A stretch of DNA of 64,000 nt from Streptomyces sp. NBC_00569. Lineage in GTDB: Bacteria; Actinomycetota; Actinomycetes; Streptomycetales; Streptomycetaceae. The notes beneath the pieces were generated by a model. The model saw only the letters and a program-made list of their open reading frames with translations, made no database searches and had not been told where the DNA came from. Below are positions 4,515 to 29,900 of this stretch, piece by piece. The position numbers and the translations under genes are program-made. Location: NCBI RefSeq assembly GCF_036345255.1, contig NZ_CP107783.1, positions 8,301,001-8,365,000 of the forward strand, read 5' to 3'. Each line of letters opens with the position of its first letter. Position 1 is the stretch's first letter.

Positions 4515-4558
4515 GACCGAGCGGCGCTGCGGAGAGCACGGCGCCGCGGAGAGGTGTC

Positions 4559-6225: not shown

Positions 6226-6244
6226 GCTGACAGTTTATAAAGAG

Positions 6245-6261
6245 CTGGACGATCCGTCCAG
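6245..6261. promoter_or_regulatory. Candidate operator, CTGGACG-ATC-CGTCCAG
   Basis: A perfect 7-bp inverted repeat with a 3-bp spacer, 20 bp upstream of the YheO-like regulator start and beside an AT-rich TTTATAAA stretch that could be a promoter element. A second short perfect palindrome, CGTGATCACG, lies about 30 bp further upstream at 6289-6298. The position suggests autoregulation; the binding protein is inferred, not shown. Confidence 0.5.
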
Positions 6262-6302
6262 AGAGATCGATTGCCGTGCGGAGAGTTCACGTGATCACGT
6301 CG

Positions 6303-7001: not shown

Positions 7002-7026
7002 GTGCTCCAGGATGACAAGGCCGCGG

Positions 7027-7509
7027 TCAGCGGCGCTCGGCGGCGGCCCGGCCGATCGCCTCGACGAGCGGCAGGACCCGGTGCGGCACCCGCTCGCGCA
7101 GCGCGACCTCGGTGCGGGTGCGGACCACGCCGGGCAGCCGGTTGAGCTGCTGGACGATGTCCTCCAGATGGCCGTTGTCGCGGGCCACCACGCGGGTCAG
7201 GAGGTCTCCGCCGCCGGTGATCGAGAAGGCCTCGATGATCTCCGGCACACCGGCGAGCCCGTCGCTCACGTCTTCGAGATGGCCCTGGGTGACCTCGATG
7301 TGGACGAACGCGAGGACCGGGTGCCCGAGCGCCGTGGGGGAGAGGGCCGGGCCGGTGCCGGTGATCACACCGTCGCGCTCCAGCCGGTCGAGCCGCGCCT
7401 GGAGCGTGCCGCGGGCCACGCCGAGGATGCGGGCGTACTCGCGCACACTCGTACGCGGCTGCTCCAGGAGGAGACGCAGGATGCGGGTGTCCAACTCGTC
7501 CACGGCCAT
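7027..7509 (-). CDS. Lrp/AsnC-family transcriptional regulator
   Basis: A 160-residue regulator with an N-terminal winged HTH (LDTRILRLLLEQPRTSVREYA, GVARGTLQARLDRLE) and a C-terminal RAM/ACT-like effector domain (AFVHIEVTQG; GGGDLLTRVVARDN). Members bind amino acids and act as octameric regulators. It is divergent from icd over about 227 bp and is followed by the HAD gene. The target is not evident; either the local amino-acid genes or a distant operon is possible. Confidence 0.92.
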   Translation of the reverse strand: MAVDELDTRILRLLLEQPRTSVREYARILGVARGTLQARLDRLERDGVITGTGPALSPTALGHPVLAFVHIEVTQGHLEDVSDGLAGVPEIIEAFSITGGGDLLTRVVARDNGHLEDIVQQLNRLPGVVRTRTEVALRERVPHRVLPLVEAIGRAAAERR

Positions 7510-7538
7510 GGGCTGCGGCCTCCTTCGCGGGGCGGTGA

Positions 7539-9959
<2,421 letters not shown>

Positions 9960-9992
9960 GCACTTCGGGCAGCGCTCCCGGCGTGACGCGTT

Positions 9993-10024
9993 CCGCCCCG
10001 GTCGGCACCAGCCGACCGGGGCGG
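9993..10024. terminator. Terminator hairpin downstream of icd
   Basis: A perfect 13-bp GC-rich stem (CCGCCCCGGTCGG paired with its complement) closed by the 6-nt loop CACCAG, starting 33 bp after the icd stop. No U-tract follows, as is usual in Streptomyces terminators. Confidence 0.85.
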
Positions 10025-10215
10025 TCCCGTATGCGCGGTTCGGGTGGAACGATGTCCCGCACCTCACCTCACGCATTTCTCCGAGTGGTTGCGGCCGGGC
10101 GGATCACCGCCGCCGGTCATCCCTCAACCGTATGAGGGTGCGCGGCGCAGGGGGTGTGCCACAGGGGCAGGCCCGGGAGGCACAGGATTTCGCGCGAGGA
10201 TTTCAGCCCCTGGCC

Positions 10216-14414: not shown

Positions 14415-15884
14415 TCACTCGAACCACCGCTGCGGCCGTGACGCGGTGTTACGCCAGATGTGCTTGGCCTCCCGGTACTCCGCGAGGCCGGTCGGACCCA
14501 GCTCCCGGCCGACGCCGGACTGCTTCATACCGCCCCACTCGGCCTGCGGTACGTAGGGGTGGAAGTCGTTGATCCATACGGTCCCGGCGTTCAGCAGGGA
14601 CGCGACCCGCTCGGCTCGCTCGGCGTTCTGCGTCCAGACCGCACCGGTCAGGCCGTAGACGGTGTCATTCGCGAGGGCGACCGCCTCGGCCTCGTCGCGG
14701 AACCGCTCGACGGTCAGGACCGGTCCGAAGGACTCGTCGCGCACCACCGACATGCCCGCGGTGCACTCGGTGAGGACGGTCGGCGGATAGAAGTAACCGT
14801 CCCGAAGCGCCGGGTCGTCGGGCCGGACGCCACCGCAGCGCAGCACCGCACCCTCCGCGACACCCGCGGCCACATACGCCTCGACCTTGTCGCGGTGGGC
14901 GGCGGAGATCAGCGGACCCGTGCGGGCGTCCTCGTCGAACGGGCCGCCCATCGGGATCGCCCGGGCCCGCGCCACCAGGTCCTCGACGAACCTGTCGTGC
15001 AGCCCGTCCTGGACCAGCAGCCGCGCCCCGGCCGAACAGACCTGACCGGAGTGCAGGAACACGGCCATCAGGGCGTAGTCGACAGCCGTCTCGTAGTCGG
15101 CGTCGTCGAACACGATGTTGGGATTCTTGCCGCCGAGTTCCAGAGCCACCTTCTTCACGGTGGCCGCGGCCGCGGCCATGATGCGCCGTCCCGTGACGAG
15201 ACCACCGGTGAACGACACCATGTCGACCCGAGGGTCCTCGGTGAGCGGTGCCCCCGCGTCCGGACCGGTGCCCAGGACGAGATTGGCGACCCCGTCGGGC
15301 AGCCCGGTCTCGGCCAGCAGCCGCATCAGGACGATCGCGGTGTGGGGAGTGAGCTCGCTGGGCTTGAGGACGAAGGTGTTGCCCGCGCCGAGCGCGGGGG
15401 CGACCTTCCAGGCGGTCTGCAGCAGCGGATAGTTCCAGGGAGTGATCAGCGCGCACACACCGACCGGCACGTGCACCACCCGGCTGTCCACGCCGGGGGT
15501 GCCGGTGTCGACGATCCGGTCGGTGCCCCCGGAGGCCACCAGATTGCCGAAGTAGCGGAAGCAGTTGGCGATGTCGTCCATGTCGTACTCGCTCTCCGCG
15601 AGCCGTTTCCCGGTGTCCAGGGATTCGGCGCGGGCGAGTGCGTCCTTGTCACGCTCGATGAGGACGGCCACGCGCAGCAGCAGCGCGCCGCGCTCGGCCG
15701 CCGGTGTGGCGGGCCACGGTCCGCGGTCGAAGGCTTCACGGGCCGCGGCGACCGCCGCCGCCGCGTCCTGCGGACCCGCCTCGTCGACCGTGGCGACCAG
15801 CGTGCCGTCGGCCGGGCAGCGGATCTCGCGCACCCGCCCGTCGACGGCGGCGATCCACCTGCCACCGATGAACAGCTCAGGCAT
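14415..15884 (-). CDS. Aldehyde dehydrogenase, betaine-aldehyde-dehydrogenase-like
   Basis: A 489-residue NAD(P)-dependent aldehyde dehydrogenase. The general base Glu249 is in LELGGKNPN, the catalytic Cys283 is in HSGQVCSAGA, and the cofactor motif is in SFTGGLVTG. The ATG at 15884 has a strong GGAGGAG eight bases upstream. It is first in a leftward operon followed by an APC permease and a GMC oxidoreductase. The order and partners suggest alcohol to aldehyde to carboxylate oxidation, for example choline to glycine betaine as an osmoprotectant or carbon source. The ALDH call is firm, its substrate is not. Confidence 0.92.
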   Translation of the reverse strand: MPELFIGGRWIAAVDGRVREIRCPADGTLVATVDEAGPQDAAAAVAAAREAFDRGPWPATPAAERGALLLRVAVLIERDKDALARAESLDTGKRLAESEYDMDDIANCFRYFGNLVASGGTDRIVDTGTPGVDSRVVHVPVGVCALITPWNYPLLQTAWKVAPALGAGNTFVLKPSELTPHTAIVLMRLLAETGLPDGVANLVLGTGPDAGAPLTEDPRVDMVSFTGGLVTGRRIMAAAAATVKKVALELGGKNPNIVFDDADYETAVDYALMAVFLHSGQVCSAGARLLVQDGLHDRFVEDLVARARAIPMGGPFDEDARTGPLISAAHRDKVEAYVAAGVAEGAVLRCGGVRPDDPALRDGYFYPPTVLTECTAGMSVVRDESFGPVLTVERFRDEAEAVALANDTVYGLTGAVWTQNAERAERVASLLNAGTVWINDFHPYVPQAEWGGMKQSGVGRELGPTGLAEYREAKHIWRNTASRPQRWFE

Positions 15885-16199
15885 GCAGACTCCTCCGGGT
15901 CGGACGTTCGGTCCAGCTCCCGAGCACGACCGGTCCCCCGACCCTGCTCCCGGGCACGCGGTGTGGTGCTCCGTCAACCGACAGTAAGTACGCGGCGTCG
16001 TCGGCGCAGCACCACGGGGGCCGGCGGTGAGGTGAGAGGCGTCCCGTTGCCGGCCGTCAGGCGCGACCACCCGGCGGTGCTCGTGCCATGTCAGGGAAGT
16101 CGGCGGGTCCCAGTGAGGCGGCTCGCGGGCGGGCGGCTCGCCGGCTGTGTTCGCCCGCCGGTTCGGAGGCCGGCGGTGCGCCGTCCCGTGCGTTGTGGT

Positions 16200-16285
16200 C
16201 CATTGGTCCCCTCCCGGCCCACGCGTGGAGCGCCTGACTGGGCCATTGGCCCAAGGCATTCGCCTGCTGTTGATCCATAGGCCCT
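16200..16285. promoter_or_regulatory. Three repeats CCAT(T/A)GG(T/C)CC before the truncated FUSC gene
   Basis: Copies begin at 16200 (CCATTGGTCCC), 16243 (CCATTGGCCC, inside the perfect palindrome GGGCCATTGGCCC at 16240-16252) and 16275 (CCATAGGCCC). Spacings of 43 and 32 bp are near whole helical turns, as for operator arrays. They lie between the divergent aldehyde dehydrogenase operon and the FUSC remnant. The rest of 15885-16294 holds GC-rich sequence with no gene. Confidence 0.4.
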
Positions 16286-16294
16286 TGAGATGCT

Positions 16295-16798
16295 GTGATG
16301 TTTCCGTCGATGGCGCTGCGGGATCTCCGCGGCGCCTTTTTCATGCGGAGTTTCGCGGTGACGCGGAAAGGGTGGGCGGCTGTGCTGAAGAGGGTGTTCG
16401 TGGCTCCGGATCCGGGGCGGCTGCGGCTGCGCTTCGCGGCCCGTGGCGTCCTCGGAATCGGCCTTGCGGTGGCCCTGTGCGGGCTCGCCGGACACTCGCT
16501 CGTCGCGGCCATCACCGGTGGCCTGGCCGCGCTGCTCGCCCTGTTCACGGTGACCGACGCGACGGTGCGCGGACAGGCCGTGACGACCGCGCTGCTCCCG
16601 GCCGTCGGACTCCCGGTGCTCGGGCTCGCGGCCGCGCTGCACGACGTGCCCGTCGCCCGTGACCTGGCGTTCCTCGCGGTCGTGGGCGCCGGCGTGTACG
16701 CGCGGCGGTGGGGGCCGCGCGGGCACTCCCTCGGCGTGTTCGCGTTCATGACCTTCTTCGCCATGTCAAGGGCGCGACAGGCAACCAGTCCCGTATAG
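16295..16798 (+). pseudogene. N-terminal fragment of an FUSC (fusaric acid resistance-like) membrane protein
   Basis: The frame encodes a basic start and four hydrophobic segments (GVLGIGLAVALCGLAG, LVAAITGGLAALLALF, TALLPAVGLPVLGLAAAL, DLAFLAVVGAGVYA) followed by RRWGPRGHSLGVFAFMTFF, the typical N-terminal membrane half of FUSC proteins, which normally run to 600-750 residues. Homology stops abruptly after FAFMTFFAM at about 16764 and the frame ends 11 codons later. A GTG at 16382 could be the true start. The break marks the left edge of the decayed island, so this is read as a gene truncated by deletion or insertion. Confidence 0.75.
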
Positions 16799-17099
16799 CC
16801 GGTGTTCTTGCTGGTCGGAGCTGTGCTGGGGTGCACTCGGCGAGCCGCATGTGTGGCCACGTGTTGTCGGGTGAATCAGGGTGCGTGCTGACCACTTGCT
16901 GACTTCCCTGACGCACCGTTAGGTGACGGTGTGGGTGCGCGTTCTGTGGTGAGGCCGGTGACCGTGCGGACCGAGTGGCGGGGCGGAACAGGTGCTCCAA
17001 AGAGCCGAGCCCGAAGCGGCGGATCAGAGTCGCCAGCAGTATGGCGCCCGCGACGAAGGTCAGGGACGCCGGCAGCGCTGCCCGGGCTTCGCCTCGAAT

Positions 17100-17479
17100 G
17101 GTGGACCCGGCCCGCCCGGCTCAAGAGGAGGCCTGGGACGCCCTGCGCCGCGCTTTCGACGTGATCGCCGAGCCCTAGACCGGCGAGCCCGGACCTCCGA
17201 TGGGCATGATGCGGCTGCTCAGCGACGCCTGCACGTTGATGACGCGGCACTGGGAGAAGACGCAGGGCTGGCAGAGCATGCTGGCGCCAGAGATCTCCCG
17301 TCGGCTCGGCGGGCCGGATCCCGTCATCGACATGCGGGCCAACGCACTCGCGGCGGCCGCGATCTCGTGCCTGGACGCGGCCGCCGATGCTGGACCGCAA
17401 GCGGCGGGACCCCTCGATGCCGGACCTCGTGGACCAGGCGATGGGCATCCTGCGGGAACCGGGCGACGTTTCCGGATAA
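17100..17479 (+). pseudogene. TetR-family regulator, C-terminal remnant with in-frame stop and frameshift
   Basis: Reading QEEAWDALRRAFDVIAEP, then TAG at 17176-17178, then in the same frame TGEPGPPMGMMRLLSDACTL and QGWQSMLAPEISRRL, then AALAAAAISCLDAAADA-type helices. Around 17390 the frame must shift to continue PSMPDLVDQAMGILREPG to a TAA at 17477-17479. This is the ligand-binding C-terminal half of an actinobacterial TetR regulator; the N-terminal HTH is missing. It is a clear pseudogene. About 300 bp to the left (16799-17099) show only scraps, including a possible reverse-strand membrane-protein tail around 17000-17070 (LTFVAGAILLATLIRRFG). Confidence 0.7.
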
Positions 17480-17603
17480 CGCATCACGCCCGCGTGCTTG
17501 GGCCTCCCCTACGGCCGTACCTCGCGCAAGGCAGGGGCCAGGCGGCGAGCACAGGCAACTGCCTTGCCGTAGCGGTGCCTAATCGACCGCGCCGCTGAAC
17601 ATC

Positions 17604-18164
17604 GTGCCATTCCGAGCAGCGGCACGATCCCAGGAAGGACAAATCACGAAACTTACTGCTATCGGTGCTGGCGCCATCGGGGGCAATCTGGCCTGCAAGC
17701 TTGCCGCCGCCGGTCACGACGTACAGGTGGCCGACGCCAGGGGCCCCGAGGCCGTCCCGGCTGACGTGCTGGAGCCCGGCGCCCGCGCCGTGCCCCTGGA
17801 CTCTGCTGTACGGGACAGGGACGTGATCATCATGTCCATCCCCTTCGAGCGTGCCCCAGAACTGGCCGACGTGCTCGCCCTGGTCTCCGACGAGACGGTG
17901 GTCATCGACACAACCAACTACTACCCGCACCTCAGCGGGCCCATCGAGGCAGTGGACAGCGGGCAGGTGGAAAGCGTGCGTAACGCCGAAGCCCTGGGCC
18001 GGCCGCTGGCCAAGGCATGGAACGCCGCCCTGGCCGAGACCCCCCGGATGCACGAGGGTCCGGAGCCGTCTCCGCGTCAGCCGAGGCGCTGCTGGCGCGC
18101 CCACGCGTCGACTTCGGAGACCTTGAACTGCAGCTTTGCGTTCCGGCCGGCGCCGAACTTGTAG
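17604..18164 (+). pseudogene. F420-dependent NADP reductase-like Rossmann protein, truncated
   Basis: The protein ITKLTAIGAGAIGGNLACKL, then DVLEPGARAVPLDSAV, VIIMSIPFERAP and ETVVIDTTNYYP is an NADPH:F420 oxidoreductase/NAD-binding fold (GxGxxGxxLA). Homology ends near 18040 after KAWNAALAET, where about 210 residues would be usual, and the frame runs on into unrelated DNA opposite the excisionase-like gene. The natural start position (AGGAAGGA at 17632-17639 followed by ITKLTAIG) carries ATC rather than ATG at 17643; otherwise translation must begin at the GTG at 17604. Confidence 0.7.
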
Positions 18165-18262
18165 ACGGCCAAGCCGAGGCGGGGTGCGTCGCGATAGACC
18201 CAGGTGAGAGACATGTTGAGGTACTCGGCGGTCTGCTTGGCATCCATGAAGCGCGGGGGCAT
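18077..18262 (-). CDS. Excisionase-like / MerR-type helix-turn-helix protein
   Basis: A 61-residue protein, MPPRFMDAKQTAEYLNMSLT, then WVYRDAPRLGLAVYKFGAGR, KLQFKVSEVDAWARQQ. This is the excisionase-type winged HTH (helix_turn_helix_17) that normally sits beside a tyrosine integrase in actinobacterial integrative elements. GGAGGT is only 3 nt from this ATG; an in-frame start at 18409 (110 residues) is possible but lacks a good site. No integrase follows: the sequence to the left is the truncated F420-reductase-like gene, so the integrase was probably deleted. Confidence 0.7.
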   Translation of the reverse strand: MPPRFMDAKQTAEYLNMSLTWVYRDAPRLGLAVYKFGAGRNAKLQFKVSEVDAWARQQRLG

Positions 18263-19087
18263 CCGACCTCCAATACTTGTGCGGGAGATCAGTGTCAGCA
18301 CGGGATGCGACTTGGTGAGGCCGTAGGAGGCCTGGTACGAGTTCGTCATTCCGTTCGGGAGGGCGGATCGTTGCCCGGGATCGTCGAAGCGGACGATCTG
18401 GGTACTCACGTCATGAAGTTGTCTACCGCGTCGCGCTGACCTGGAGCGATGCAGCTTCAGTCGCCTCTGGCCAGCGCAGATCAGTCTTTGAGGGTCTGTC
18501 AGAGTGCGTGCCGTCTTATGCAGTCGATGCTCCCCAGCAGCGCTGATCCTCCCCAGATTCCCCCCAGGGAAGGCCGCCGTGACGGACGGCGAGAGACGAA
18601 ACTTGGCGCTGTCGCTGGCACGGTGAGTGACTGTAGCGGGTGCTCAACCGGCATCCCGGGGGTGATCTCGGCTCCAAGATCTCCGCCCTGTGCGTACCCG
18701 TCGCTTCGAAGGCACTGCGTCCGGCCACTGATAGCGAGGCGGCTGCCCGCCCTGAGCCGTGACGGTCCCACATGGCACAGGTAGTCGGAACCGTCTTCTG
18801 ACGTCCACGTGGTCCAGTTCGACGCCGTTCACGCAGGTTTGGTCTTGGTGGTTCAGGTGCGTCGACGCTGTTGGTGACACGGACGTGACAGAGGTTGACC
18901 CTCGTCGGCCTGCGGGGCCGCTGGCGCGGCGCTGGTGGGCCGCGGCCTGGGAGTGGATGCTTCCGGTAGGTCGGGGCATGCCCAAGAACTCGAACAGCTG
19001 TAGGCATCGTGGCGCGGGATGACTACGATCGCAGTCGTTCGCTCGTGACCTGTTGTGGGTGCAAATTGCGCAGCGAGAGGGCGGCGG
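18263..19087. other. Region without a recognisable gene
   Basis: About 825 bp with stops in all frames or only unsupported open frames. No family resemblance was seen on either strand. It holds the promoter of the excisionase-like gene and presumably part of the lost element. Confidence 0.5.
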
Positions 19088-19213
19088 GTGGCCGATGTGG
19101 AGCTATCCGGGGAGGCGGTCGACGATCGCACGAGTGTCCGTACTAGCCTTGCCGTTCGTTTGGACGCGCTTCCGTGTCTAGGGCCGGTTGAGGTCCGTTG
19201 GCTTTGTTGTTGA
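19088..19213 (+). CDS. Possible 41-residue small ORF upstream of an unknown gene
   Basis: GTG at 19088 is preceded by GAGAGGG at a fair distance and opens VADVELSGEAVDDRTSV to a TGA at 19211-19213. It is rich in acidic residues and has no Cys until its end. It partly overlaps the earliest TTG start of the next gene. No family is recognised; it may be chance. Confidence 0.25.
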   Translation: MADVELSGEAVDDRTSVRTSLAVRLDALPCLGPVEVRWLCC

Positions 19214-19307
19214 GGCTGCTTCCGGTGGCGCGGGGCAAGCGGTAAGGATGAGCGCGTACAGCCCTGCTGGGGAGAGCGTCGGGTGCAGGACGAGAGCGGG
19301 TTGGTCG

Positions 19308-19925
19308 ATGGCAATCGCGGCACGAGAGCCCTTGGGTGTGGTTGCGGGAGCGCTGGCTCCCGGCGATCTCGTACCCCGTGATGCGAACCTGGCGGTTGTT
19401 GAAGCCGAGGGGGCGAAGGTCGTTGCGGCCTACCGAGTCGAGGCGCGAGAGCGGGAGCGACGGGCGGCTGCGGGTATGCCACCCCTGACGCGGCCGGATG
19501 CCCTGAACCTCTTGATGGCGCTGCCGCTCGGCGAGCCTGTTCCTGCCGGATCACTGAACGGCAGGGAACGCCGAGCGTTGAAGTGCCTGCCGAAGGGGGC
19601 GGTGGTCCGACGCGACGGATTGATTACCCGTCTGGCAGCCCAGCCGGTCCACGTCGACATGGTGTTCGTGCCCGGACGCAGCTGGGAATCGGCGATGGAG
19701 CGGGCCGAGCGGTTCACGCCATTCACTGCTCGTTCCGTATTGATCGATGGCGCGTTGCGGCGCAAGAACGAGGCGGTGATGCGCGCTGACTTCTACGGCA
19801 TCGGATTGCTCCACGTCCAGGGTGATGCGGTCGAGGTTGTTGTGCCACCCAGCCCCTTCGTGCGCAAGCGCCATACGGTTGCTGGCTGGAAATTCTTGGA
19901 AGACGTCCACCGTCAGCTCCCCTGA
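19308..19925 (+). CDS. Hypothetical protein, unrecognised, convergent with the TGT-like gene
   Basis: About 205 residues from the ATG at 19308; in-frame alternatives are ATG 19248 and TTG 19188, none with a strong ribosome site. Visible: AAREPLGVVAGALAPGDLVP, a basic helix RVEARERERRAAA, PLGEPVPAGSLNGRERRALK, a block PVHVDMVFVPGRSWESAMER and an ending GDAVEVVVPPSPFVRKRHTV. No signal peptide or membrane segment. Codon use is Streptomyces-like and the frame is clean over 600 nt, so it is probably a real gene. It ends 14 bp from the stop of the TGT-like gene. I recognise no family. Confidence 0.55.
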   Translation: MAIAAREPLGVVAGALAPGDLVPRDANLAVVEAEGAKVVAAYRVEARERERRAAAGMPPLTRPDALNLLMALPLGEPVPAGSLNGRERRALKCLPKGAVVRRDGLITRLAAQPVHVDMVFVPGRSWESAMERAERFTPFTARSVLIDGALRRKNEAVMRADFYGIGLLHVQGDAVEVVVPPSPFVRKRHTVAGWKFLEDVHRQLP

Positions 19926-19939
19926 GCGGGTGCATCCGG

Positions 19940-21103
19940 CTACTGAGCGACGGGCAACGTCGCCCATGCTTTGAGCGGCGCGGGTACTTGGAACCCGGAC
20001 TTGGGACTCGCACCCACCCCGATGCGCTGGTTTTCCAGTGCGTAGCGGTCGACGGCTGCAGCGCATTTGTTGCGCCACCACGTCTTACGCTCGGAGCCGG
20101 CTCGGTGGCTTGCCATGTCGCTGACCCATGCGCCCCAGGTGTGGATGTTGTGGTTCTCGGCTTCACGCCGCGTTTCACCGTCGGAAAGGTAAAAGCTGTC
20201 GAGGCTGCGCCCGTCGCACTCCTCGCAGTCGCAGGTTGCCGGATCGGCATTGCCGTAGACCTTGGAGAAGAACTCGGCGCCCTTGAAGCACATCAACTGC
20301 GGCATCAGGATGTGCGGGTACGTGGGGCCGCCACCGCGCTTGCCTATCTGGGCCTTCTCGTCGGGTGGTATCGCGTGGCGGAGCGAGCTCTGGACGCCGA
20401 TTCCCGCGCAGAGGGCGCCGTGCGCCATCACGTCGAGAGCTGCGAGGTCTGTGCGCAGCAGTGACATGTGCTCGACCTCGGTGAACAGCCTGCGCAAGTT
20501 GGCCGGGATGTCCTTCGTCTGTCCCAGTGGGTCGAACTGGCAGAAGAGGATGACTGCCTTCGGGTGACGGATCTTGTCACAGACCGAGATCAGTTGGCCG
20601 ATGTTCTCCCGGCTCAGCCAGGTGACATCGATCGGAAGGGAGACCAGCGTGTCTGCTCGCTCGATGCGGTTGGCTTCCCGCATTACCGCTTTGAGGGCGC
20701 GGGAGTTCGCCGGCGGTATGTAGCCGGTGGGTGTCAGTGCTGCGGTTGCACCTCGAGCCTTCTGGAAGTTCAGCGAGGTGTCCACGGCGGCGAACAGTTC
20801 GTCGGGAGGAGCCATGAACGGCTCCTCCGCCGTTGCCGTGTACGTGGTGTACACGGCGCTGTCGATCAGCAGAGTGCCCTGGTAGCCGACGTCGGCGCGG
20901 AGCTGGAAGGCGCGTGCGTCGGCGTTGGCGCCGGTCATGACCACGCCGCTCAGGCCGTCATCGAGGGCCGGGCGAGGTCGGGGAGTGTACTGGGCATGTT
21001 CGTGCAGTAGTACCCGGCCTTGCAGGAGCGGCACCGCTGCCACGGTGTGGTCGAGCGTCTTCACGGCGGGCGGTCGCCGCCTCGGATCGGGAGCGTTGCT
21101 CAT
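19940..21103 (-). CDS. tRNA-guanine transglycosylase-like (DpdA/TGT-superfamily) TIM-barrel protein
   Basis: A 387-residue protein. The C-terminal third carries C291-x-C293-x2-C296 followed by H318 or H321, matching the zinc site of TGT enzymes (CxCxxC and a histidine about 25 residues on). Near the N-terminus GYQGTLLIDSAVY (Asp81-Ser82) matches the TGT active-site block usually written DSGGFQ. Between them, alternating strands and helices (VSLPIDVTWL, AVILFCQFDPLG, GIGVQSSLRH) fit a TIM barrel. I do not find the usual second catalytic aspartate motif (VDMFDC), so chemistry may differ. It starts 3 bp after the XRE-ImmA/IrrE gene and must be cotranscribed with it. It could modify tRNA or DNA bases or be a non-catalytic relative. 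Confidence 0.6.
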   Translation of the reverse strand: MSNAPDPRRRPPAVKTLDHTVAAVPLLQGRVLLHEHAQYTPRPRPALDDGLSGVVMTGANADARAFQLRADVGYQGTLLIDSAVYTTYTATAEEPFMAPPDELFAAVDTSLNFQKARGATAALTPTGYIPPANSRALKAVMREANRIERADTLVSLPIDVTWLSRENIGQLISVCDKIRHPKAVILFCQFDPLGQTKDIPANLRRLFTEVEHMSLLRTDLAALDVMAHGALCAGIGVQSSLRHAIPPDEKAQIGKRGGGPTYPHILMPQLMCFKGAEFFSKVYGNADPATCDCEECDGRSLDSFYLSDGETRREAENHNIHTWGAWVSDMASHRAGSERKTWWRNKCAAAVDRYALENQRIGVGASPKSGFQVPAPLKAWATLPVAQ

Positions 21104-21106
21104 GAA

Positions 21107-22219
21107 TCACCTCGCAGAAGGGTCCGGCACGTCCTTGTGTCCGGACGGAGAAGAAGCGCACAAGTAGATCTCGTGGAACTCCTCACGACCCAGCCCCGCC
21201 AGATGCGCGGTCTCGGTCGCACTGAGGTGGTGCTGCCCCTCAAGCCAGGTGACGGCCTGAGCGATATGGCGCGGGGTCTCGCGCCGGATGACGATTGGTT
21301 CGTTGGTGCGGTAGCCGAGTGCGGACAACTCGACCATGAGCGTGCGGTACTGCCATTCGCTGATCACGCCCAGGTCCACGGCCCGCCGGATGAGAGCGGC
21401 CATGGAGACCCCCCAGCGGGCTTTGAGATCCATGAGGCGGGCGACGTCGATGCCGGGCTTCAACTCGCCCAGGATCACCTCGTGCGGCATGAGGAACTCG
21501 GCGGCGAACCGGTCGGCTTGGGACTCCTGTGTACGTCCCTCGCCTGGCTCGCGGTGCATGATCAGATGGCCCAGCTCGTGAGCGAGGCTGAAGCGTGAAC
21601 GGTCGCCAGGGGCAGTGGAGTTGATGAGTATCAGCGGCGCCCGGTCGTGCGGCCACTGGCTGACGGCGTCGAGTTCGGTGGTGCCCAGATCGCGGACTAC
21701 GACCAGGGCGCCGGCGTGTTCGAGCAGCGCAACCAGGTCGTCGATGGGGCCGGTGGGAACGTTCCACTCTTCGCGCAGCGTCTCCGCTGCGTCCGCGGGT
21801 GTGTCGAAGTCGTTGACCTCAATGTGCCTGAACCGGTGGGGATGACGAAGGGCCGCCGCCCGCGCTACCGCTTCGACCTGGAGGCGGGTGAGGGCCAGCG
21901 TGGCATGGATTCGGCGCAGCGCGGGGGCTCCCAGTGAGGCCCGCTTGCGGTGGTGTATCAGCCCGATGCCTGCCCCGGCCGTATCGGCGGTCTGGCACAG
22001 CATTTCGGGTGTGAAGCGAAGCGCGGCGGCGAACAGGAGGACCCGCTCGGCCCGGACCGGGATGCGTCCGGCTTCGGCCCGGCTTACGTACCCCTGCGTG
22101 ATGCGGTTGTCGTCCACGTGCGACATCTGCTCGGCAAGCTCGGACTGGGTCCATCCTCGAGAGTCGCGCGCCAGGACGAGCATGGCGGGATCCGCGAGCA
22201 ACTCCTCTTGATCACTCAC
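21107..22219 (-). CDS. XRE-family HTH fused to ImmA/IrrE metallopeptidase
   Basis: A 370-residue protein. Residues about 12-75 form an XRE HTH (SRGWTQSELAEQMS; ITQGYVSRAEAGRI). Residues about 150-290 form the ImmA/IrrE peptidase with the zinc motif HELGH and a downstream ESQADRFAAEFLMP block that supplies the third ligand. Such proteins cleave or antagonise repressors in mobile elements and stress responses, or act as antitoxin-like partners. It is the first gene of a two-gene leftward unit with the TGT-like protein, 3 bp apart. It probably represses its own promoter through the HTH. Confidence 0.9.
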   Translation of the reverse strand: MSDQEELLADPAMLVLARDSRGWTQSELAEQMSHVDDNRITQGYVSRAEAGRIPVRAERVLLFAAALRFTPEMLCQTADTAGAGIGLIHHRKRASLGAPALRRIHATLALTRLQVEAVARAAALRHPHRFRHIEVNDFDTPADAAETLREEWNVPTGPIDDLVALLEHAGALVVVRDLGTTELDAVSQWPHDRAPLILINSTAPGDRSRFSLAHELGHLIMHREPGEGRTQESQADRFAAEFLMPHEVILGELKPGIDVARLMDLKARWGVSMAALIRRAVDLGVISEWQYRTLMVELSALGYRTNEPIVIRRETPRHIAQAVTWLEGQHHLSATETAHLAGLGREEFHEIYLCASSPSGHKDVPDPSAR

Positions 22220-22699
22220 GGTCCGCCTCCATCCCTGACAAGCCTCAACTCCACTGAGGGTACACGGTTTTATCCCTCAAAATATTCCGTACGTGATCCG
22301 TAAGGTGTCATGCCTTCAGGGATACCACGCGCCCCTGGCAGTCCAACTGTCTGTCTGGTGACCGTTGTTGGGTGGGAGAGGGCTTCACGTGCATCATCCG
22401 CCCGAGACATCGCTGCACAGATCAGGAGGTCGCTCCGCGGTGGAACACAGGGTTGCCGCATCGTGTTCGTCACGGCTGTATCTCTCGCACGTTCGCCGCC
22501 ATCAACGAACATCAATTGCCGCATAGGTGCGGTTGGCGGTCGAGTTTGAGCACGTCGGGTTCGGGTGTTGTGGGGGCGGGAGGATGGGTGGGTGCTGTCC
22601 CTGCTCTGGGGTCTGACTCCTGACATCTCTGACCAATGTGTCCTGGTCTCACAGTGTCGGCCGTGGGCCGGGGATGGTGCGTTGTCGGTGCCGGGCTGG
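22220..22699. promoter_or_regulatory. Promoter region of the ImmA/IrrE unit and gene-free DNA
   Basis: The first 110 bp are unusually AT-rich (around 22260-22300, TTTTATCCCTCAAAATATTC) and include two CCGTA direct repeats 11 bp apart, plus GAGGG/CCCTC halves flanking an AT stretch. These are plausible XRE operator elements. The remaining roughly 350 bp show no supported gene. Confidence 0.4.
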
Positions 22700-23083
22700 C
22701 GGGGTGTGTACCGATAGACATCTCAGCGAGCTAAGAAGTCAAGTGGCAGCCGTGATCATCGGCGGAGGTGGCACCTCGATCCCGTCGATGGACGTTCTGT
22801 TCGACACCCCCCGCTGCAACGTCATCACCGGCGTCGGCGGCCCGGAGCCAACGGCAAGAAGACTCCGGTCTACGTGACGGAGGACGCGCCGTGGTCCGCG
22901 GTCCGAGACCGGGTCAACCCCTACGGTTTCGTTGCCTTCACAGTCGATCCGGGTACCCATCCGGGCGGCCGTACGACGATGGCTGTGACGTACTACGCCG
23001 TCACCGGTCTGTACGGCCAGGCGGAGCCGGTCGACACCTTCACCCTGCAGCGCAACCGAAATGACCGCGCACCCGAACGGTGA
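22700..23083 (+). pseudogene. Metallophosphoesterase, C-terminal remnant with frameshift
   Basis: One frame reads DRHLSELRSQVAAVIIGGGG, SIPSMDVLFDTPRCNVITGV and GPEP, then hits a stop. Shifting by one base near 22850 continues as GKKTPVYVTEDAPWSAVRDR, VNPYGFVAFTVDPGTHPGG, TYYAVTGLYGQAEPVDTFTL. Together they form the C-terminal part of a Streptomyces calcineurin-like/purple-acid-type phosphoesterase. The catalytic N-terminal domain is absent. A single-base deletion plus 5' truncation makes this a pseudogene. Confidence 0.75.
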
Positions 23084-23159
23084 ACTCAGATGCGCTGCAA
23101 CTGCTGCTTTGTGACGGCGACTTCTGATACACCCGTGCTCGCCTGCCAGTTGGGGACGC

Positions 23160-23400
23160 ACCGCCGCAACGGCCTCGCCTGATCCGTAGTGGGCTTCAGG
23201 TACTCAACGGCACAGCCCGACAGGTCCGGGGCCGACGTGGCGGTGATCGTGACGAACGGCAGAGTCACCGCGTCGGCTGTGGCCTTCGCCAAGCAGCAGC
23301 GGCTGCTCGTGGTCGACCGCCACACCCTCGGAGTGTGGGCATCCGGCTCCCGCCCCCTGGGGAATCTCCTCCGGGTTGTCCCCGCCCCCTCGCAAACCAA
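23160..23400 (+). pseudogene. Mrr-type restriction endonuclease C-terminal remnant, frameshifted
   Basis: One frame gives GLQVLNGTARQVRG, typical of the Mrr/endonuclease VSR-like fold core; a second frame takes over at about 23225 as GADVAVIVTNGRVTASAVAF, then AKQQRLLVVDRHTLGVWASG and SRPLGNLL. This is the end of a restriction_endonuclease (Mrr, PF04471-like) domain. The N-terminal half with the catalytic D-ExK is lost. It is a remnant of a defence gene. Confidence 0.65.
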
Positions 23401-24020
23401 CAACCCTCTCCCGAGCAGGTCCTCCGGTCCACTCTGCGTCAGGGGGCGGCGCTGCAGCGAGGCGACCAAGACGTTCAAGGCGGCGGGTCATAGTGCGCAA
23501 GCTGAGCGCGGAGTGCCCATCACGAACCGGCTGCGCATCGTCACGTTTCCAGCAATGACACGAAACCGTTCCGGCAGGGCGCCGTGTGCTGGCCGACGGT
23601 TCAGTCGTTGACTTCGGCTCACCGGGTCTTATAGGCCGTGGTCGGTGCTCAGGACTGGTAGCGCAGACGGGGCAGAGCTGCACGCCCAGGGTGTCGGGGT
23701 GCTGCTTGAGGTGGTACGGCGGGTGCAGGGGATGGGCCTGCTCGGCGCTGCGGGCGGCCGGGTGCGTGGATGGAGGGCTGCCGCTCGGCTCTTTCCGCGG
23801 AGGGGTCGAGATCGATGAGAGCGCACCTTCCGTACCCTCGGCCGTCGCTGCGGCGGAGACTTGAGCGGTGGCCTGCCCTTACGCGGGGAGCGCTCACCGG
23901 CAGTGGATACCCGCCCCGGGCAGATACCTGCGCGTTCACCAACCTTGATCGGCTACGTCACTCGGTGGGACGTCACCGGTGGCGGCAGCCGCCACCGGTG
24001 AGGAGCTACCGGCGGCCGCG
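23401..24020. other. Region without a recognisable gene
   Basis: About 620 bp of gene-free DNA between the Mrr remnant and the doxX stop. A reverse-strand scrap near 23640-23700 reads HPDTLGVQLCPVCATSPEHR with a CxxC pair, but it has no start, is short, and matches nothing I know. No other signal was seen. Confidence 0.4.
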
Positions 24021-24491
24021 TTACGCGTCCGCCGCGGCCCGATCGGCGACCGCCGCCCGTCGCGGCTCCTTCCGCGTGGTCGACCGCAGCCGCTCCAGCG
24101 CCCAGGGGCCAGGACCAAAGGCGGCGAACATCAAGAAGATCCAGGCATACAGGGCAGAGGGCTCACCGTTGTTCTCGATCGGCAGCAGGCCGGTCGGCTG
24201 GTGGACGGTGAAGTAGGCGTACGCCATTGATCCCGAACAGATCAGCGCCGTCGGCCGGATGAACAGGCCGAGTGCCACGAGGATGCCCCCGACCAGTTGG
24301 ATGACGGCCGCCCACCATCCGGGCCACGCGCCAAGCGGAACGCTCCCGCCATGCGTACCAACGGCTCCGCCCATCACGCCGAACAGCGAAGCGGCGCCGT
24401 GGCAGGCGAAGAGGAACCCGACGACGATACGGACCAGTGATTGCATGGAACCGGCAGCCTTGGTCCCGACGGATTCGACAGAGCGGTACAT
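24021..24491 (-). CDS. DoxX-family membrane protein
   Basis: Encodes 156 residues with four hydrophobic segments (VRIVVGFLFACHGAASLFGV, WAAVIQLVGGILVALGLFI, TALICSGSMAYAYFT, YAWIFLMFAAFGPG), the standard four-helix DoxX fold with the N-terminal R-x-x-x-G-F-x-F-x-x-H-G pattern. Members are linked to redox and thiol stress membrane complexes, but most are uncharacterised. The C-terminal tail is basic and Ala-rich. It is a leftward single gene divergent from the prpF-like gene. Confidence 0.88.
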   Translation of the reverse strand: MYRSVESVGTKAAGSMQSLVRIVVGFLFACHGAASLFGVMGGAVGTHGGSVPLGAWPGWWAAVIQLVGGILVALGLFIRPTALICSGSMAYAYFTVHQPTGLLPIENNGEPSALYAWIFLMFAAFGPGPWALERLRSTTRKEPRRAAVADRAAADA

Positions 24492-24925
24492 GAGCCTCAG
24501 TCCTTCAAAGCGTGTGGGGCAATGGGGAAATGCGGTTGCGGATGTACGGCGTGGGGGAGGATTCGGCCGCGGAGAGCGGTACCCGAACGGCGATGCGGGA
24601 CGCTATATGCCCCCGCTCGCAGGTGGGCTGCCAATTGGCGAACAGTCAGCCAACGCTGGAAGCAGGCCAGTTCAGAGGGGTCGCCGCAGCGCAACCCGGC
24701 ATCTGTGCGAAGCGGTAGGCGCGTTGTGATCGTGATCACCGGCCGCCGCTCTACCTGGTCGAATGCGCGGTTTCCCTCTCGTTTGCCAGGTAGTCGTTGT
24801 GAGCCGGAGTGCGCCCGTACAAGCTGCAAGCGGCCCGCCCCACTCGGGTGAATCGCCGCCGGCCGGCTCCCGCGCCGACGACGCTGTCCGAGGGCCATGG
24901 CAGACACCAGCTATGGAGGGACCGG
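24492..24925. other. Divergent intergenic region, doxX / prpF-like
   Basis: About 430 bp holding both promoters. It contains the palindromic stretch GTGATCGTGATCAC near 24726-24740. No supported gene was found on either strand; a reverse frame of 136 codons lacks a start signal and family resemblance. Confidence 0.4.
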
Positions 24926-25942
24926 ATGATCGGCCATCTTTGCTACACGGCAGGAAAGAGCGACCCCACGCTCGTGCTGGACCGCAGGGCGATGCCCGCG
25001 GACGAGCGGGTACTCATCAACACGCTCCTCGTGGCGCGTGACTGGCTGGCCGATCACTACGCGGCCGATGTCACGACCATCGCCATGATCGAGCCGTCCG
25101 CCGACCCGAATTCCGACCTTGACCACCTGTTCGCCCAGTACGTGCCCGGCACACTGCCGCGTTTCGCTCTGCGCGGCAGCTGCGGGAACTCGATCCTGTC
25201 CTCCGTCGCCGTGGCACACCGCCTTGCCTGGCTGCCCCGCCTCACCGAGGGCCGCCGATGGCACGTCAACGTCCTCAATACCGGTGACCGAGTCGCCTGC
25301 GAGGTCAGCGGAACCAGCCGTACTGCGGCGTTCGCCGTGGAATTCGCCTACGACCCCCCTCGCCGACTGCGTGACCTGCTGCCCGCCGGAACGCCGCAGA
25401 CCGAGCTCGAGGGCGTACCGGTGTCCCTGGTGTCCGCCGGCAATCCGTATGTCTTCGTCGATGCCGCCGAGCTCGGTCTGCCGGATCAGGAGGCCCTGTT
25501 CGCGGCCGGTTCGGCGGTGCGAGAGCGGCTGGCCGGCATCCGCCGTGCCGCCGCGGGCCGCCTGGGCCTACCGGAGAGCAGCGTGTTACCAAAGATTGCC
25601 GCCGTGGGCCAGTACCAGTACCGGCGTCTGGCGGTTCTGACACTTCCGGCGCCGGTCCCGTCCGCTCCGATTGCGCCGGCCGACGCCATCACTGTGGCCG
25701 CCGCCGCGGTGATCGACGGCACGATCCCGCAGCGGCTGGCCCTCCAGGGCTGGAGCCGGACGGACGAACTGGTCATCGACACCCCAGGCGGCACCACGGT
25801 CGTGCGGCTCTCCGTGTCGGGCACCACCCTGCAGGACACCCTGGTCCGCGCAGGCGTGCGCCGCGGGACCGTCCGGTATGACGGTCCCGTCTTCCTCGAG
25901 CCGCTGCGCGACCTGATGCTCACTCCCGCCCACATCAGCTGA
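24926..25942 (+). CDS. PrpF-family protein (DAP-epimerase fold isomerase), with a TTA codon
   Basis: A 338-residue protein of the PrpF (2-methylaconitate isomerase) family. The key loop GSCGNSILSSVA is the cysteine-containing active-site motif, and the repeated half carries AGNPYVFVDAAELGL. ATG 24926 has GGAGGG about 5 nt upstream. PrpF normally works with AcnD in propionate metabolism, but here it precedes an exporter and an indigoidine synthetase. A TTA leucine codon lies at 25586-25588 (codon 221); in Streptomyces TTA is read by the bldA tRNA, so expression may be delayed to development. Its role in the pigment cluster is unknown. Confidence 0.8.
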   Translation: MIGHLCYTAGKSDPTLVLDRRAMPADERVLINTLLVARDWLADHYAADVTTIAMIEPSADPNSDLDHLFAQYVPGTLPRFALRGSCGNSILSSVAVAHRLAWLPRLTEGRRWHVNVLNTGDRVACEVSGTSRTAAFAVEFAYDPPRRLRDLLPAGTPQTELEGVPVSLVSAGNPYVFVDAAELGLPDQEALFAAGSAVRERLAGIRRAAAGRLGLPESSVLPKIAAVGQYQYRRLAVLTLPAPVPSAPIAPADAITVAAAAVIDGTIPQRLALQGWSRTDELVIDTPGGTTVVRLSVSGTTLQDTLVRAGVRRGTVRYDGPVFLEPLRDLMLTPAHIS

Positions 25943-26000
25943 CGCTCCAACAAGCGCCGCTCCACGTAACTCACTTCCTCCACACACAGGCGGTTCACGT

Positions 26001-26969
26001 ATGCCTTCTGCCCTGCGCGTTTGTCCATCAACTCCCGGACGGGCCCAGGCTTGCGACGTGTTGCTCACGGCGCTGGCCCCGGCGGTGTGGGGCAGCACCT
26101 ACTTGGTGACAACGGAACTCCTCCCACCGGGCAGGCCGTTGCTGGCGTCCGCAGTGCGGGCGCTGCCCGCCGGGCTGGTCCTGCTCGCGATCGGCCGGAG
26201 GCTCCCACACGGCGCGTGGTGGTGGCGTGCTGCGGTGCTGGGGGCGTTGAACATCGGCGTCTTCTTCTATCTGCTGTTCGTGGCCGCCTACCATCTGCCC
26301 GGCGGGGTGGCCGCGCTGGTGGTCGCCGTCCAGCCGATGATCGTTCTGCTGCTCGGGGCCGTGCTGCTGAAGGAGCCGATCCGTCCCGCGCAGGTCACCG
26401 CCTGCGTACTCGGCGTGGCAGGGGTGGCGCTGCTCGCCCTCACACCCCGCGCCGACATCGACGCCACCGGCATCGTCGCCGGTCTCGCCGCCGCGGTCAG
26501 CATGGCCGTCGGCATCGTGCTCACCAAACTCTGGGGACGGCCTGCGGGCATCGGCGTCCTGACGTTCACCGGCTGGCAGCTGACCGCAGGCGGCCTGCTG
26601 CTCGCGCCGGTCACCCTGGCTGCCGAAGGACTGCCCACCCGTGTCACCGCCGGCAACATCGCAGGCTTCGCGTATCTGTGCCTGATCGGGGCACTGCTCG
26701 CCTACGCCGTCTGGTTCCGCGGAATCGCACGGCTACCGGCCCTGGCGGTGTCGATCCTGGGTTTCGCCAGCCCACTCACCGCAACCGCTCTCGGATACCT
26801 CGTCCTCGGCCAGGGCCTGACACCCCTCCAACTCGCCGGTTCCGCGGCGGTCGTCGCCTCCGTCGCCCTGGCACAGACCTCGCAGCCGCCACGCGCCGGG
26901 ACACCGGCTGACGGCACGTCATCGACACCGACTCACGACCACGCACCCGCAGCCAAGGGGAAACCATGA
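26001..26969 (+). CDS. EamA-family (DMT superfamily) exporter
   Basis: A 322-residue membrane protein with ten hydrophobic segments in two EamA repeats (ALAPAVWGSTYLVTTELLPP at the start of repeat 1; GLAAAVSMAVGIVLTKLWGR at repeat 2). Such proteins export amino acids and metabolites. Its stop codon overlaps the next gene's start in ATGA, so translation is coupled to the indigoidine synthetase. It may export a glutamine-derived precursor, the pigment, or excess amino acid. The tail (PADGTSSTPTHDHAPA) is hydrophilic. Confidence 0.88.
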   Translation: MPSALRVCPSTPGRAQACDVLLTALAPAVWGSTYLVTTELLPPGRPLLASAVRALPAGLVLLAIGRRLPHGAWWWRAAVLGALNIGVFFYLLFVAAYHLPGGVAALVVAVQPMIVLLLGAVLLKEPIRPAQVTACVLGVAGVALLALTPRADIDATGIVAGLAAAVSMAVGIVLTKLWGRPAGIGVLTFTGWQLTAGGLLLAPVTLAAEGLPTRVTAGNIAGFAYLCLIGALLAYAVWFRGIARLPALAVSILGFASPLTATALGYLVLGQGLTPLQLAGSAAVVASVALAQTSQPPRAGTPADGTSSTPTHDHAPAAKGKP

Positions 26970-29900
26970 CCACAGCACAGCCCACCGTACGTTCCACGAC
27001 CCGCGCCCACGGCCTCCGCCTCGGCGGAAGCCTGCCCGAACTGCTGCAAGAGCAGGCCGCCGTACAGCCCGCCGCCACCGCAGTCACCAGCGACGGCGAA
27101 AGCCTCAGCTACCAGGAGCTGGCAGTAGCCGCCGCCCGACTGGGCAGCCACCTGAACGAGTTGGGCATGGCCCGCGACGACTGCGTCGGCCTGTACGCCG
27201 AGCCGTCCCTGGACTTGATGACGGGCGTGTGGGGCATCCTGTTCTCGGGCGCCGCCTATCTGCCGCTGTCCCCGGAGTACCCCGAGGAGCGGCTGCGCTA
27301 CATGATCGAAGACAGCCGCACCGACGTCATCGTCACGCAGGACCACCTCGCGGCCCGACTGCATGACCTCGCCCCGTCCGGCACCCGCATCGTCACGCTC
27401 ACCGAGGCCGCGCAGAGCCCGGCCACCGGGCTGTCGGCGCCCGCGCCCGGCAACCTCGCCTACGTCATCTACACCTCCGGCAGCACCGGCCGACCCAAGG
27501 GCGTCCTGATCGAACACCGCAGCATCCTGAACCAGATGCAGTGGATGCAGATGTGCGGGCATCTGGGTCCGCGTACGACCGTGCTGCAAAAGACGCCGAT
27601 GAGCTTCGACGCGGCGCAGTGGGAGATCCTCGCCCCCGCCCTCGGCGCTCGTGTGGCGATGGCAGCGCCGGGCAGCTACCGCGACCCTGAGGCGCTGATC
27701 AACACCATCGCCGCGCACGAGGTGACCACTGTGCAGTGCGTGCCCACGCTGCTGCAGGCACTGCTCGACACTGAGCGGCTCGGCTCCTGCACCACGCTGC
27801 GCCGGGTGTTCTCCGGCGGCGAGGCACTCTCCCGGCAGCTGGCCCGCACCTTCCTCGACGAGGTTCCGTGGGCATCGCTGGTCAACCTGTACGGGCCGAC
27901 CGAGTGCACCATCAACGCGACAGCCCACCTGGTCGACCCGGACGCGCTGGGCGAGGGCACCGGATCGGTCCCTATCGGCGTGCCGGTCGACAACACTCAG
28001 TGCTACATCCTCGACGAGAACCTGGCACCGGTGGACATCGGGGAGAGCGGTGAGCTGTACATAGGCGGCGTCCAGCTGGCCCGCGGATACCTGAACCGGC
28101 CCGAGCAGACGAAGGAGAGATTCGTCCCCTCGCCGTTCGTGCCGACCGAGCGGCTGTACCGGACGGGCGACCTGGCGTACTGGCACCCCGACGGCACGAT
28201 CCAGTTCACCGGCCGCACCGACAACCAGATCAAGCTGCGGGGCTACCGCGTCGAACTCGACGAGATAGCCCTGGCCATCGAGGAGCACACTTGGGTGCGC
28301 CGCGCCGCCGCGATCACCGCCGAGGACCCGCGTACCGGCTCCACCAATCTGCTGGCGTGCGTCGAGCTCAACCCGAAGGAAGCCGCCCTGATGGACCAGG
28401 GCAACGCCGGCACCCACCACCAGTCCAAGGCCAGCAAGCTCCAGGTGAAGGCGCAGCTGTCGAACCCGGGCCTGCGGGACGCGGACGAACTCGACGGCAG
28501 GCACGTACTACCGCTGCCGGGCCGGCAAGAGACCGTTCGGCAGCGGCGAGAGACATTTGCCCGCAAGACCTACCGGTACTTCGACGGCGGACAGGTCACT
28601 CGCGACGACATCCTCGCCCTGCTCGCCCCGCGCCCGACCGGCGCACACTCACGTCCGCTGTCAGACCTGACGTTCCATCAACTCGGCGAGTTGCTGCGCT
28701 GGTTCGGCCAGTTCCGCAGCGAGGAGCGGCTCCTGTCGAAGTACTCCTACGCCTCACCCGGAGCCCTGTACGCCACACAGCTGTACCTGGAGGCCGGTGG
28801 TCTGGATGGCCTGGACGCCGGCGTGTACTACTACCACCCCGCCGACCACACCCTGGTGCGGATCGCCGAGGCCGCGCAGACTGCCGACCCGCGGCTGTCG
28901 GTGCACCTCATCGGCAAGAGGCGGGCCATCGAGCCCGTCTACAAGAACAACATCCGCGAGGTGCTCGAGTTCGAAGCCGGTCACATGCTCGGCGTCTTCG
29001 AGGAGATACTCCCCGAGTACGGCCTCACGATCCGCCCCGCTGCCCACCGGCCCGCCGTGCAGGACACCCTGGAGGTCGCCGCCGAGGACTACTACCTGGG
29101 CACCTTCACCATCGATTCCCACGACGGCGTGCCCCCGCACGACCCCACCGACATCTATGTACAGGCTCACCCGGGCTGTGTGCACGGCCTGCCGGCTGGC
29201 CAGTACCGATGGACCGGCCGCGACCTGACCCCCATCTCCGACGCACTCGTCCTGCCCAAGCATGTGATCGCCATCAACCAGCAGGTGTACGAGCGGGCGA
29301 GCTTCGGTATCACCGCGGTGAGCCGCACGGGCGACGAGCGACTGCAGTACATCGCGATGGGCACCACGCTCCACCACCTGCAGCGCAACGCCCGGCGCAT
29401 CGGTCTGATGTCGTCCGGCTACAGCTCCAAGACCGGCCACCCACTGCCCGCCGCACGGCGCGTGGACGACATCCTCGCCTCCTGCGCGCTACCCACCGGT
29501 CCCTCGTACTTCTTCCTTGGCGGCAAGGTCAGCGAGGAGCAGCTCCGCAGCGAGGGCATGAACGAGGATGCGGTCCACATGAAGGGCCCGGCCGAGATGA
29601 TCCGGGACGACCTGGCGGAGCGACTGCCCGACTACATGATTCCGGGCCGCGTCCTGGTGCTCGAACGGATGCCCCTCACCGCCAACGGCAAGGTCGACGT
29701 CAAGGCACTGGCCGCCGCCGAGCAGGTCCGCTCCGCCGACACCGGCCGGTCCTACGTCGCCCCCGCCAACCCGGCCGAGCAGTGGCTGGCCGACGCGTGG
29801 GCGAAGGCACTGAAGTACGACGAAGTGTCCGTGGAAGACGACTTTTTCGCCTCCGGTGGCAACTCGCTGATCGCGGTGGCGCTCGTCAACCGCATCAACC

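Follow-up and report, generated by a model that had tools for sequence, protein, structure and literature searches.

Here we describe a three-gene locus in a 64,000-nucleotide stretch of Streptomyces sp. NBC_00569 DNA (the window). The host genome is a single contig of 10.3 Mb, and the named relatives closest to the window are Streptomyces. The locus comprises a gene for a protein resembling tRNA-guanine transglycosylase (TGT), a convergent gene for a protein that we call W3, and a gene for a protein (hereafter ImmA) that joins an XRE-type helix-turn-helix (HTH) domain to an ImmA/IrrE metallopeptidase. Sequence comparison established a near-constant core of the TGT-like gene and W3, the kinship of ImmA with the RmrA family, and the spread of the genes as a block. 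We read the locus, with a probability of roughly 0.45, as a horizontally spread conflict module, for defence or element stability, in which an RmrA-type protein would be the switch and the TGT-like protein would act with W3 on a nucleic-acid base. The features are as follows.

18763..22490, strand not applicable: shared DNA block of about 3.7 kb (blastn against L003-L007, whose surroundings differ)
19308-19925, plus strand: W3, about 205 amino acids (aa), no known family; convergent with the TGT-like gene, the two gene ends lying 14 nt apart
19940-21103, minus strand: TGT-like protein, 387 aa (open reading frame (ORF); profile alignment to tRNA-TGT in three sub-clades)
20150..20152, minus strand: codon of H318, predicted fourth zinc ligand, invariant in 40 sequences
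20216..20233, minus strand: codons of C291-x-C293-x-x-C296, predicted zinc ligands, invariant in 40 sequences
20447..20455, minus strand: codons of R217-T218-D219 (R-x-D motif), with R217 and D219 invariant
20861..20863, minus strand: codon of D81 (LLIDSAVY), invariant and aligned to TGT as the counterpart of the Asp in DSGG(F/Y)Q
21107-22219, minus strand: ImmA, an XRE-HTH plus ImmA/IrrE (Peptidase_M78) protein of the RmrA family, 370 aa, GTG start (Pfam, PADLOC)
21566..21580, minus strand: HELGH metallopeptidase motif of ImmA, intact
22255..22279, strand not applicable: palindrome TGAGGG-N13-CCCTCA in front of the ImmA gene and a candidate operator for the XRE domain of ImmA itself

The initial annotation had described the ImmA and TGT-like genes as a two-gene unit on one strand with 3 nt between them. 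Both ORFs and their spacing are as it described, but the convergent W3 had been overlooked. Loci were gathered by a contig scan with one peptide pattern, so that loci lacking this pattern were missed. We analysed 48 loci (the window, L003-L033 and L035-L050); L036, L040, L042 and L046 repeat the contigs of L024, L027, L015 and L029, respectively, so that the distinct loci number 44. Outside the 48 are the fragments L051 (with W3), L052 (without W3), L053 (not confirmed by the profile) and L057, and the repeat copies L034, L054, L055 and L056. Locus ORFs came from a codon-bias script, and the neighbour lists may include false genes. In 42 of the 44 distinct loci, W3 and the TGT-like gene meet tail to tail at a median gap of 6.5 nt, and the genes overlap in 11 of these 42. 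Across 200 genomes of the same family, the TGT-like gene was found in 20 (as fragments only in G087, G158 and G161), W3 in 18 and both in 16, a strong co-occurrence (Fisher p = 4e-18).

Comparison of the window with six relatives (L003-L008) gave dN/dS values of 0.12-0.28 for all three genes and 0.14-0.27 for W3 alone. By this measure, the coding is real and the three genes are under purifying selection. The start of W3 was picked from homologue starts; longer ORFs begin at 19248 or 19188. For 29 W3 members, searches of Pfam, PADLOC and NCBIfam returned nothing credible, and MmcB (PF06319), a possible W3 relative, was present in none of 149 genomes. W3 may be PD-(D/E)XK-like, without the catalytic residues. 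On sequence grounds, W3 is a new protein family and the most constant partner of the TGT-like gene. In seven loci (L014, L017, L021, L023, L029, L031 and L044), W3 is preceded on the same strand by a gene of about 105 aa, putatively DNA-binding, that overlaps it in some of them, is winged-helix-like by eye and has 37-65% identity among copies; it was not found in the window. Because this gene precedes W3, each arm may be able to carry a small regulator, with the TGT-like gene and W3 as the core.

W3-like proteins were also seen on 14 Streptomyces plasmids (L162-L165 and 10 more), where 53-68% of W3 is covered, and the plasmid search with the TGT-like protein returned no Streptomyces record. 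DUF6247 genes follow the plasmid W3-like genes in three of four regions viewed. Genome G155 carries three W3 copies of equal score and one partial copy, including an orphan W3 that lies 11 kb from a contig end and adjoins an 891-aa gene, helicase-like by eye (L155). In the host genome, a short W3-like piece interrupted by a stop codon (L123, about 138819-138980) is possibly a decayed third copy.

At E up to 1, nothing in Pfam, PADLOC, NCBIfam or PHROGs matched the 387-aa protein. Among 8000 candidates scored, it had 67 homologues at E up to 1e-3, and the UniRef label of one begins 'tRNA-guanine famil'. In 40 homologues (down to 27% identity), D81, Y85, R217, D219, G236, R242, C291, C293, C296, H318 and others are invariant. 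D81 and Y85 belong to the LIDSAVY block, which the initial annotation had likened to the TGT active-site block. The zinc pattern reported there is also present as CxCxxC (C291, C293 and C296) and a later His, except that H318 stands 22 residues past the third Cys, not about 25. The Cys-His spacing is 20-22 residues in the family (31 with an insertion) versus mostly 26 in tRNA-TGTs, and the D81-to-C291 spacing is 207-215 residues versus 211-221 in 25 actinobacterial tRNA-TGTs, which were picked by motif from 30 loci. The family appears to have the zinc site of a TGT, with CxCxxC and a His at the right distance from the Asp of DSGG. In the TGT superfamily, the nucleophile Asp stands after the last barrel strand. 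No invariant Asp occurs from G236 to C291 in the 40 sequences, in line with the initial annotation, which had reported the second catalytic Asp motif absent; D219 is the only invariant Asp besides D81, and D159 is nearly invariant. As judged from the alignment, the canonical TGT nucleophile is without a conserved counterpart in this family.

Using profile comparison, we obtained scores of 32.4, 37.4 and 29.4 against tRNA-TGT for sub-clades A (10 rows), B (6 rows) and C (8 rows), respectively, each alignment beginning just before the DSGG(F/Y)Q block. Column shuffles reached these scores in 0, 0 and 1 of 200 cases; the three matches are not independent tests because the sub-clades are mutually related. 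The sub-clade profiles exclude 2 of the 40 rows (P0071 and L033). Control profiles of ImmA and W3 scored 13.1 and 16.3 against the same TGT profile, and phage DpdA, taken as a yardstick, scored 20.4 against tRNA-TGT, which is under the range of sub-clades A-C (29.4-37.4). In a comparison of 11 phage DpdA with the TGT-like family (hhalign), scores were 13.6-20.0, and 60 shuffles of the profile of all 40 sequences reached 21.0. The family shares with tRNA-TGTs (PF01702) the DS..(Y/F) block, the CxCxxC...H pattern, a near-equal Asp-to-zinc spacing and, in sub-clades A-C, a following Q...GA segment, but it lies below Pfam detection and lacks a conserved counterpart of the TGT nucleophile Asp. With the sub-clade A-C profiles aligned at DSGG(F/Y)Q and the matching Asp-to-zinc spacing, the protein is likely a distant member of the TGT superfamily, in agreement with the kinship first proposed.

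NTP_transf_3 was matched in 10 of 33 members (best E 3.6e-5); the four matches checked gave 23.9-25.6 bits, below the cut-off of 27, and the matches as a whole were set down to chance. Sequence searches of the Protein Data Bank (PDB) with the TGT-like family and W3 gave no credible match. Viral contigs, scanned with two peptide patterns, yielded no TGT-like relatives, and neither did phage records. The host genome carries a second TGT-like gene, 37% identical, in L033 (2.307-2.326 Mb; about 8977-10065, minus strand), which is accompanied by a separate convergent W3 and lacks an ImmA gene beside it.

The 370-aa ImmA protein matches Pfam Peptidase_M78 (E 2e-23) and HTH_31 (E 5e-7) and, over residues 10-352, the PADLOC RmrA model PDLC03949 (E 6e-65). 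The NCBIfam antitoxin model spr1629 gave 99.9 bits, far under its cut-off of 335, and the window protein P0002 matches CapP 7t5t (E 7e-5). HELGH is found in 20 of 21 ImmA partners and HEIGH in the other. The initial annotation had looked to a survey of neighbourhoods for a conserved ImmA partner and had taken homologues without one as refuting its proposal. The partner does recur in several actinobacterial families and, in a very distant form, on an Arthrobacter plasmid; however, it is adjacent in 26 of 43 judgeable loci and in the remaining 17 none is adjacent, the outcome named there as refuting. L015, at a contig end, was excluded from this count, and the second contig of the same genome, L057, has ImmA. 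Loci L035-L050 span about 1.5 kb upstream, and less in L041, L044 and L048, all of which have ImmA. Of the 26 ImmA loci, L020 holds a C-terminal remnant within the TGT-like frame and L048 holds ImmA as two frames. The TGT-like gene is one unbroken frame in 15 of the 17 loci without adjacent ImmA.

In a tree built from 43 TGT-like rows, of which 25 have ImmA and 18 do not (three rows are duplicates; L015, L042, L031, L032 and L048 are left out), the ImmA label requires six changes, and at least four of these are forced by well-supported branches. Whether the changes are gains or losses cannot be read from the tree by itself. Since ImmA-less clades are nested amid ImmA-bearing ones, ImmA was probably lost while the TGT-like gene and W3 stayed; the L020 remnant and the three-gene layout in Arthrobacter favour repeated loss. 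Such repeated loss argues against ImmA as an obligate antitoxin. We infer that ImmA is an old, common and replaceable switch, not the core of the module.

ImmA relatives (E up to 1e-20) occur in 18 of 101 genomes of the family. Ten of their neighbours comprise one patatin, one HNH protein, seven proteins with no Pfam family and one with a sub-threshold AAA/SMC match only. In L137 and L144, ImmA relatives adjoin the patatin-like phospholipase and the HNH protein, which are candidates for further RmrA-type pairs. The palindrome at 22255-22279 is the sole match in the window at two mismatches to the consensus, with 0.01 expected, although this consensus was derived from the same region. It has two mismatches in L003 and L005, three in L006, four in L004 and L008, and five in L007. 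No match with up to two mismatches was found at the W3 or TGT-like promoters.

We mapped the shared block by blastn of window positions 15000-27000 against L003-L033. The border on the W3 side falls at window 18759-18764 in all five of L003-L007, and the border on the ImmA side within 22349-22633; beyond the block, this part of the window has no match to L003-L007. L003, L004, L006 and L007 have an extra 90-130 bp or so on the W3 side in common, so they may represent one insertion. The excisionase-like gene that the initial annotation had counted as part of the island (18077-18409; HTH_17 at 24 bits, below the Pfam cut-off of 27) sits outside the block and gave no tblastn match (E 1e-3) in L003-L033, which does not bear out its membership. 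To the right of the block, stretches of about 110-310 bp in window 22609-23419 have counterparts of 74-88% identity in many genomes of the genus, and these short matches suggest remnants of mobile or repeated genes.

The layout is also found on distant plasmids. In Arthrobacter agilis, a plasmid encodes a 25%-identical TGT-like protein after an annotated ImmA/IrrE gene (an open frame of 368 codons, 316 bits to the ImmA profile), with annotated zeta-toxin and RES genes nearby. A convergent frame of 204 codons, absent from the gene table of the record (L166:5789-6400, minus strand), ends exactly at the TGT-like gene. A Tsukamurella plasmid has a TGT-like relative without annotated ImmA; a convergent 207-aa gene overlaps it by 26 nt and itself follows an annotated AbrB/MazE gene. 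Between the two convergent proteins, identity is 27% across 157 residues (E 6e-11). A profile built from both scored 28.5 against the W3 family, which none of 100 shuffles reached (maximum 21.8). With the W3 profile alone, the Tsukamurella protein was weak (5.6-6.6 bits) and the Arthrobacter protein was not picked. With all three genes in this order on the Arthrobacter plasmid and related convergent frames on both plasmids, the three-gene layout is ancient.

Neighbouring genes were also inspected. Vsr adjoins L037, a sub-threshold AAA/NACHT match adjoins L046, and the neighbour of L032 is an alcohol dehydrogenase. In G122, a W3-less member with three small ORFs is flanked by an NPPY-motif protein, methyltransferase-like by eye and without a PDB match, and by a divergent 1303-aa protein. 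In the PDB, this divergent protein weakly matches BrxC (E 8e-4 and 2e-3) and a putative protein of conjugative transfer (E 3e-4). A PglZ match (36.1 bits, cut-off 25) lies about 6 kb from this TGT-like member. L025 contains a 2213-aa neighbour (2608-9249, minus strand) that has an HSP90/HtpG-like region and whose N-terminus resembles TIR by eye. The initial annotation had proposed a defence or addiction module; the RmrA-type regulator and some defence-type neighbours fit such a conflict role. Its two-gene unit is not supported, the most constant partner being W3.

In the mechanism that we propose, the XRE domain would repress the TGT-like operon through the palindrome, and foreign or damaged DNA would lead the ImmA protease to lift this repression. 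PMC10904395 describes ssDNA as activating repressor cleavage by the proteases PprI and CapP. The CapH/CapP and PprI/DdrO systems share with our locus the logic of an XRE repressor with an ImmA-type zinc protease, but in our locus a single protein carries both domains and has a TGT-like gene as its neighbour. Once released, the TGT-like protein would attack or exchange an RNA or DNA base at a zinc-braced site with D81 and possibly D219, and W3 would be its constant counterpart, either a subunit or a restrainer. We further propose, tentatively, that this is an undescribed actinobacterial conflict system in which a TGT-fold effector without the canonical nucleophile would act with W3 on a nucleic-acid base, from two tail-to-tail operons each able to bear a DNA-binding switch (XRE-ImmA on one; winged-helix-like or AbrB-like on the other). 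In searches of open-licence PubMed Central papers, none joined 'tRNA-guanine transglycosylase' with ImmA IrrE or RosmerTA, and no title among those listed described the pairing.

Several observations weigh against the conflict-module reading. For the TGT kinship, Pfam did not report PF01702 in 33 TGT-like members at E up to 1, a fourth sub-clade (14 rows) aligns to TGT at CxCxxC with a score of 20.5, and the profile of all 40 sequences scored 26.5 in another region, within the shuffle range (maximum 26.6 of 60). For the switch, other ImmA loci have 5-7 mismatches to the palindrome and 300 random pieces have 4-8 (nine at 4), so that beyond close relatives it is at chance level by this comparison; ImmA-lessness means no adjacent ImmA, and genome-wide absence was shown for G003 only. 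For the core, L047 and L049, which fall in one deep, long-branched clade, have no recognisable W3, and the 14 of 40 rows that make up the Nocardiopsis sub-clade are outside the neighbourhood counts. The three proteins are highly correlated in their pairwise distances over 21 loci (r 0.972, 0.980 and 0.975; 0 of 2000 permutations as high); this correlation speaks for the reading, but it can also stem from shared ancestry of the linked DNA. For the setting, the window neighbours are metabolic, and of 10 upstream neighbours tested, one was defence-type above the cut-off and one below.

A different reading takes the locus as a RosmerTA-type toxin-antitoxin pair, with the TGT-like protein as a new RmrT toxin, ImmA as antitoxin and W3 as a mere frequent neighbour. 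The likeness is close: in both, an antitoxin of the ImmA/IrrE family, often with an N-terminal HTH, adjoins a variable partner, and the window ImmA protein has the HTH and ImmA/IrrE protease that characterize RmrA. The RmrA match and the 3-nt gap favour this account, as do ImmA relatives beside other putative effectors (patatin and HNH) and the age of the pairing, and PMC10440598 has RmrA antitoxins pairing with various toxins in RosmerTA phage defence. However, the partner here is TGT-like, and neither it nor W3 matches a PADLOC model; no recognised RmrT was found beside ImmA by PADLOC (E up to 1) for the TGT-like protein or 29 W3, in a library whose RmrT content was unchecked. In addition, our locus has a second, more constant convergent partner, and the loci without adjacent ImmA, most with an unbroken TGT-like frame, together with the repeated label changes on the tree, fit poorly with a toxin kept in check by its antitoxin; we hold the pair to be rather unlikely. 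It seems improbable that the TGT-like protein is an accessory enzyme of metabolism or tRNA maintenance without any part in conflict. The metabolic neighbours in the window and the alcohol dehydrogenase beside L032 speak for it, but the occurrence is patchy (20 of 200 genomes), the genes move as a block, the switch is of the RmrA type and distant members occur on plasmids.

If the TGT fold merely bound nucleic acid, as a pseudoenzyme, and controlled W3 as the real effector, the loss of the canonical nucleophile would be accounted for, and W3-like proteins without a TGT-like gene in the plasmid search, or near a contig end in one genome, would also fit. Eukaryotic QTRT2 is such a TGT-fold protein that only binds nucleic acid. 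Yet the invariance of D81, R217, D219 and R242 is what an active site would show, and we doubt this account. The remaining possibility, raised by the initial annotation, is modification of the Dpd or queuosine type, in which the TGT-like protein inserts a 7-deazapurine into DNA or tRNA. The likely TGT kinship agrees with it, and the locus resembles DpdA/Dpd and BRC in that its TGT homologue has mobile or defence surroundings; PMC12839542 places TGT homologues in Dpd and in BREX-related BRC systems. In the host genome, however, PF01702 had no match (controls positive in 14 of 14), and in a 555-aa frame a single QueC match spans 67 of 210 positions and scores 21.7 bits, or 25.7 when its neighbours are counted in, against a cut-off of 22. 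This search of the genome covered TGT and QueC. With no PF01702 and one weak, partial QueC, 7-deazapurine insertion is unlikely. Our locus also differs from Dpd in that no 7-deazaguanine genes, including the phage DpdA companions QueC, GTP cyclohydrolase and queuosine-precursor transporter, are among the 20 neighbours scanned, no phage DpdA profile matches and the nucleophile Asp is without a conserved counterpart.

If the conflict-module reading is true, a base-exchange fold joins the partners of RmrA-type proteases, outside queuosine and Dpd modification, and the module has a core, the TGT-like protein with W3, that is separable from its switch. It would also help explain the role of a TGT relative in a genome where neither a TGT nor a queuosine route is recognised, and W3 would stand as a new family with a defined, testable neighbour.

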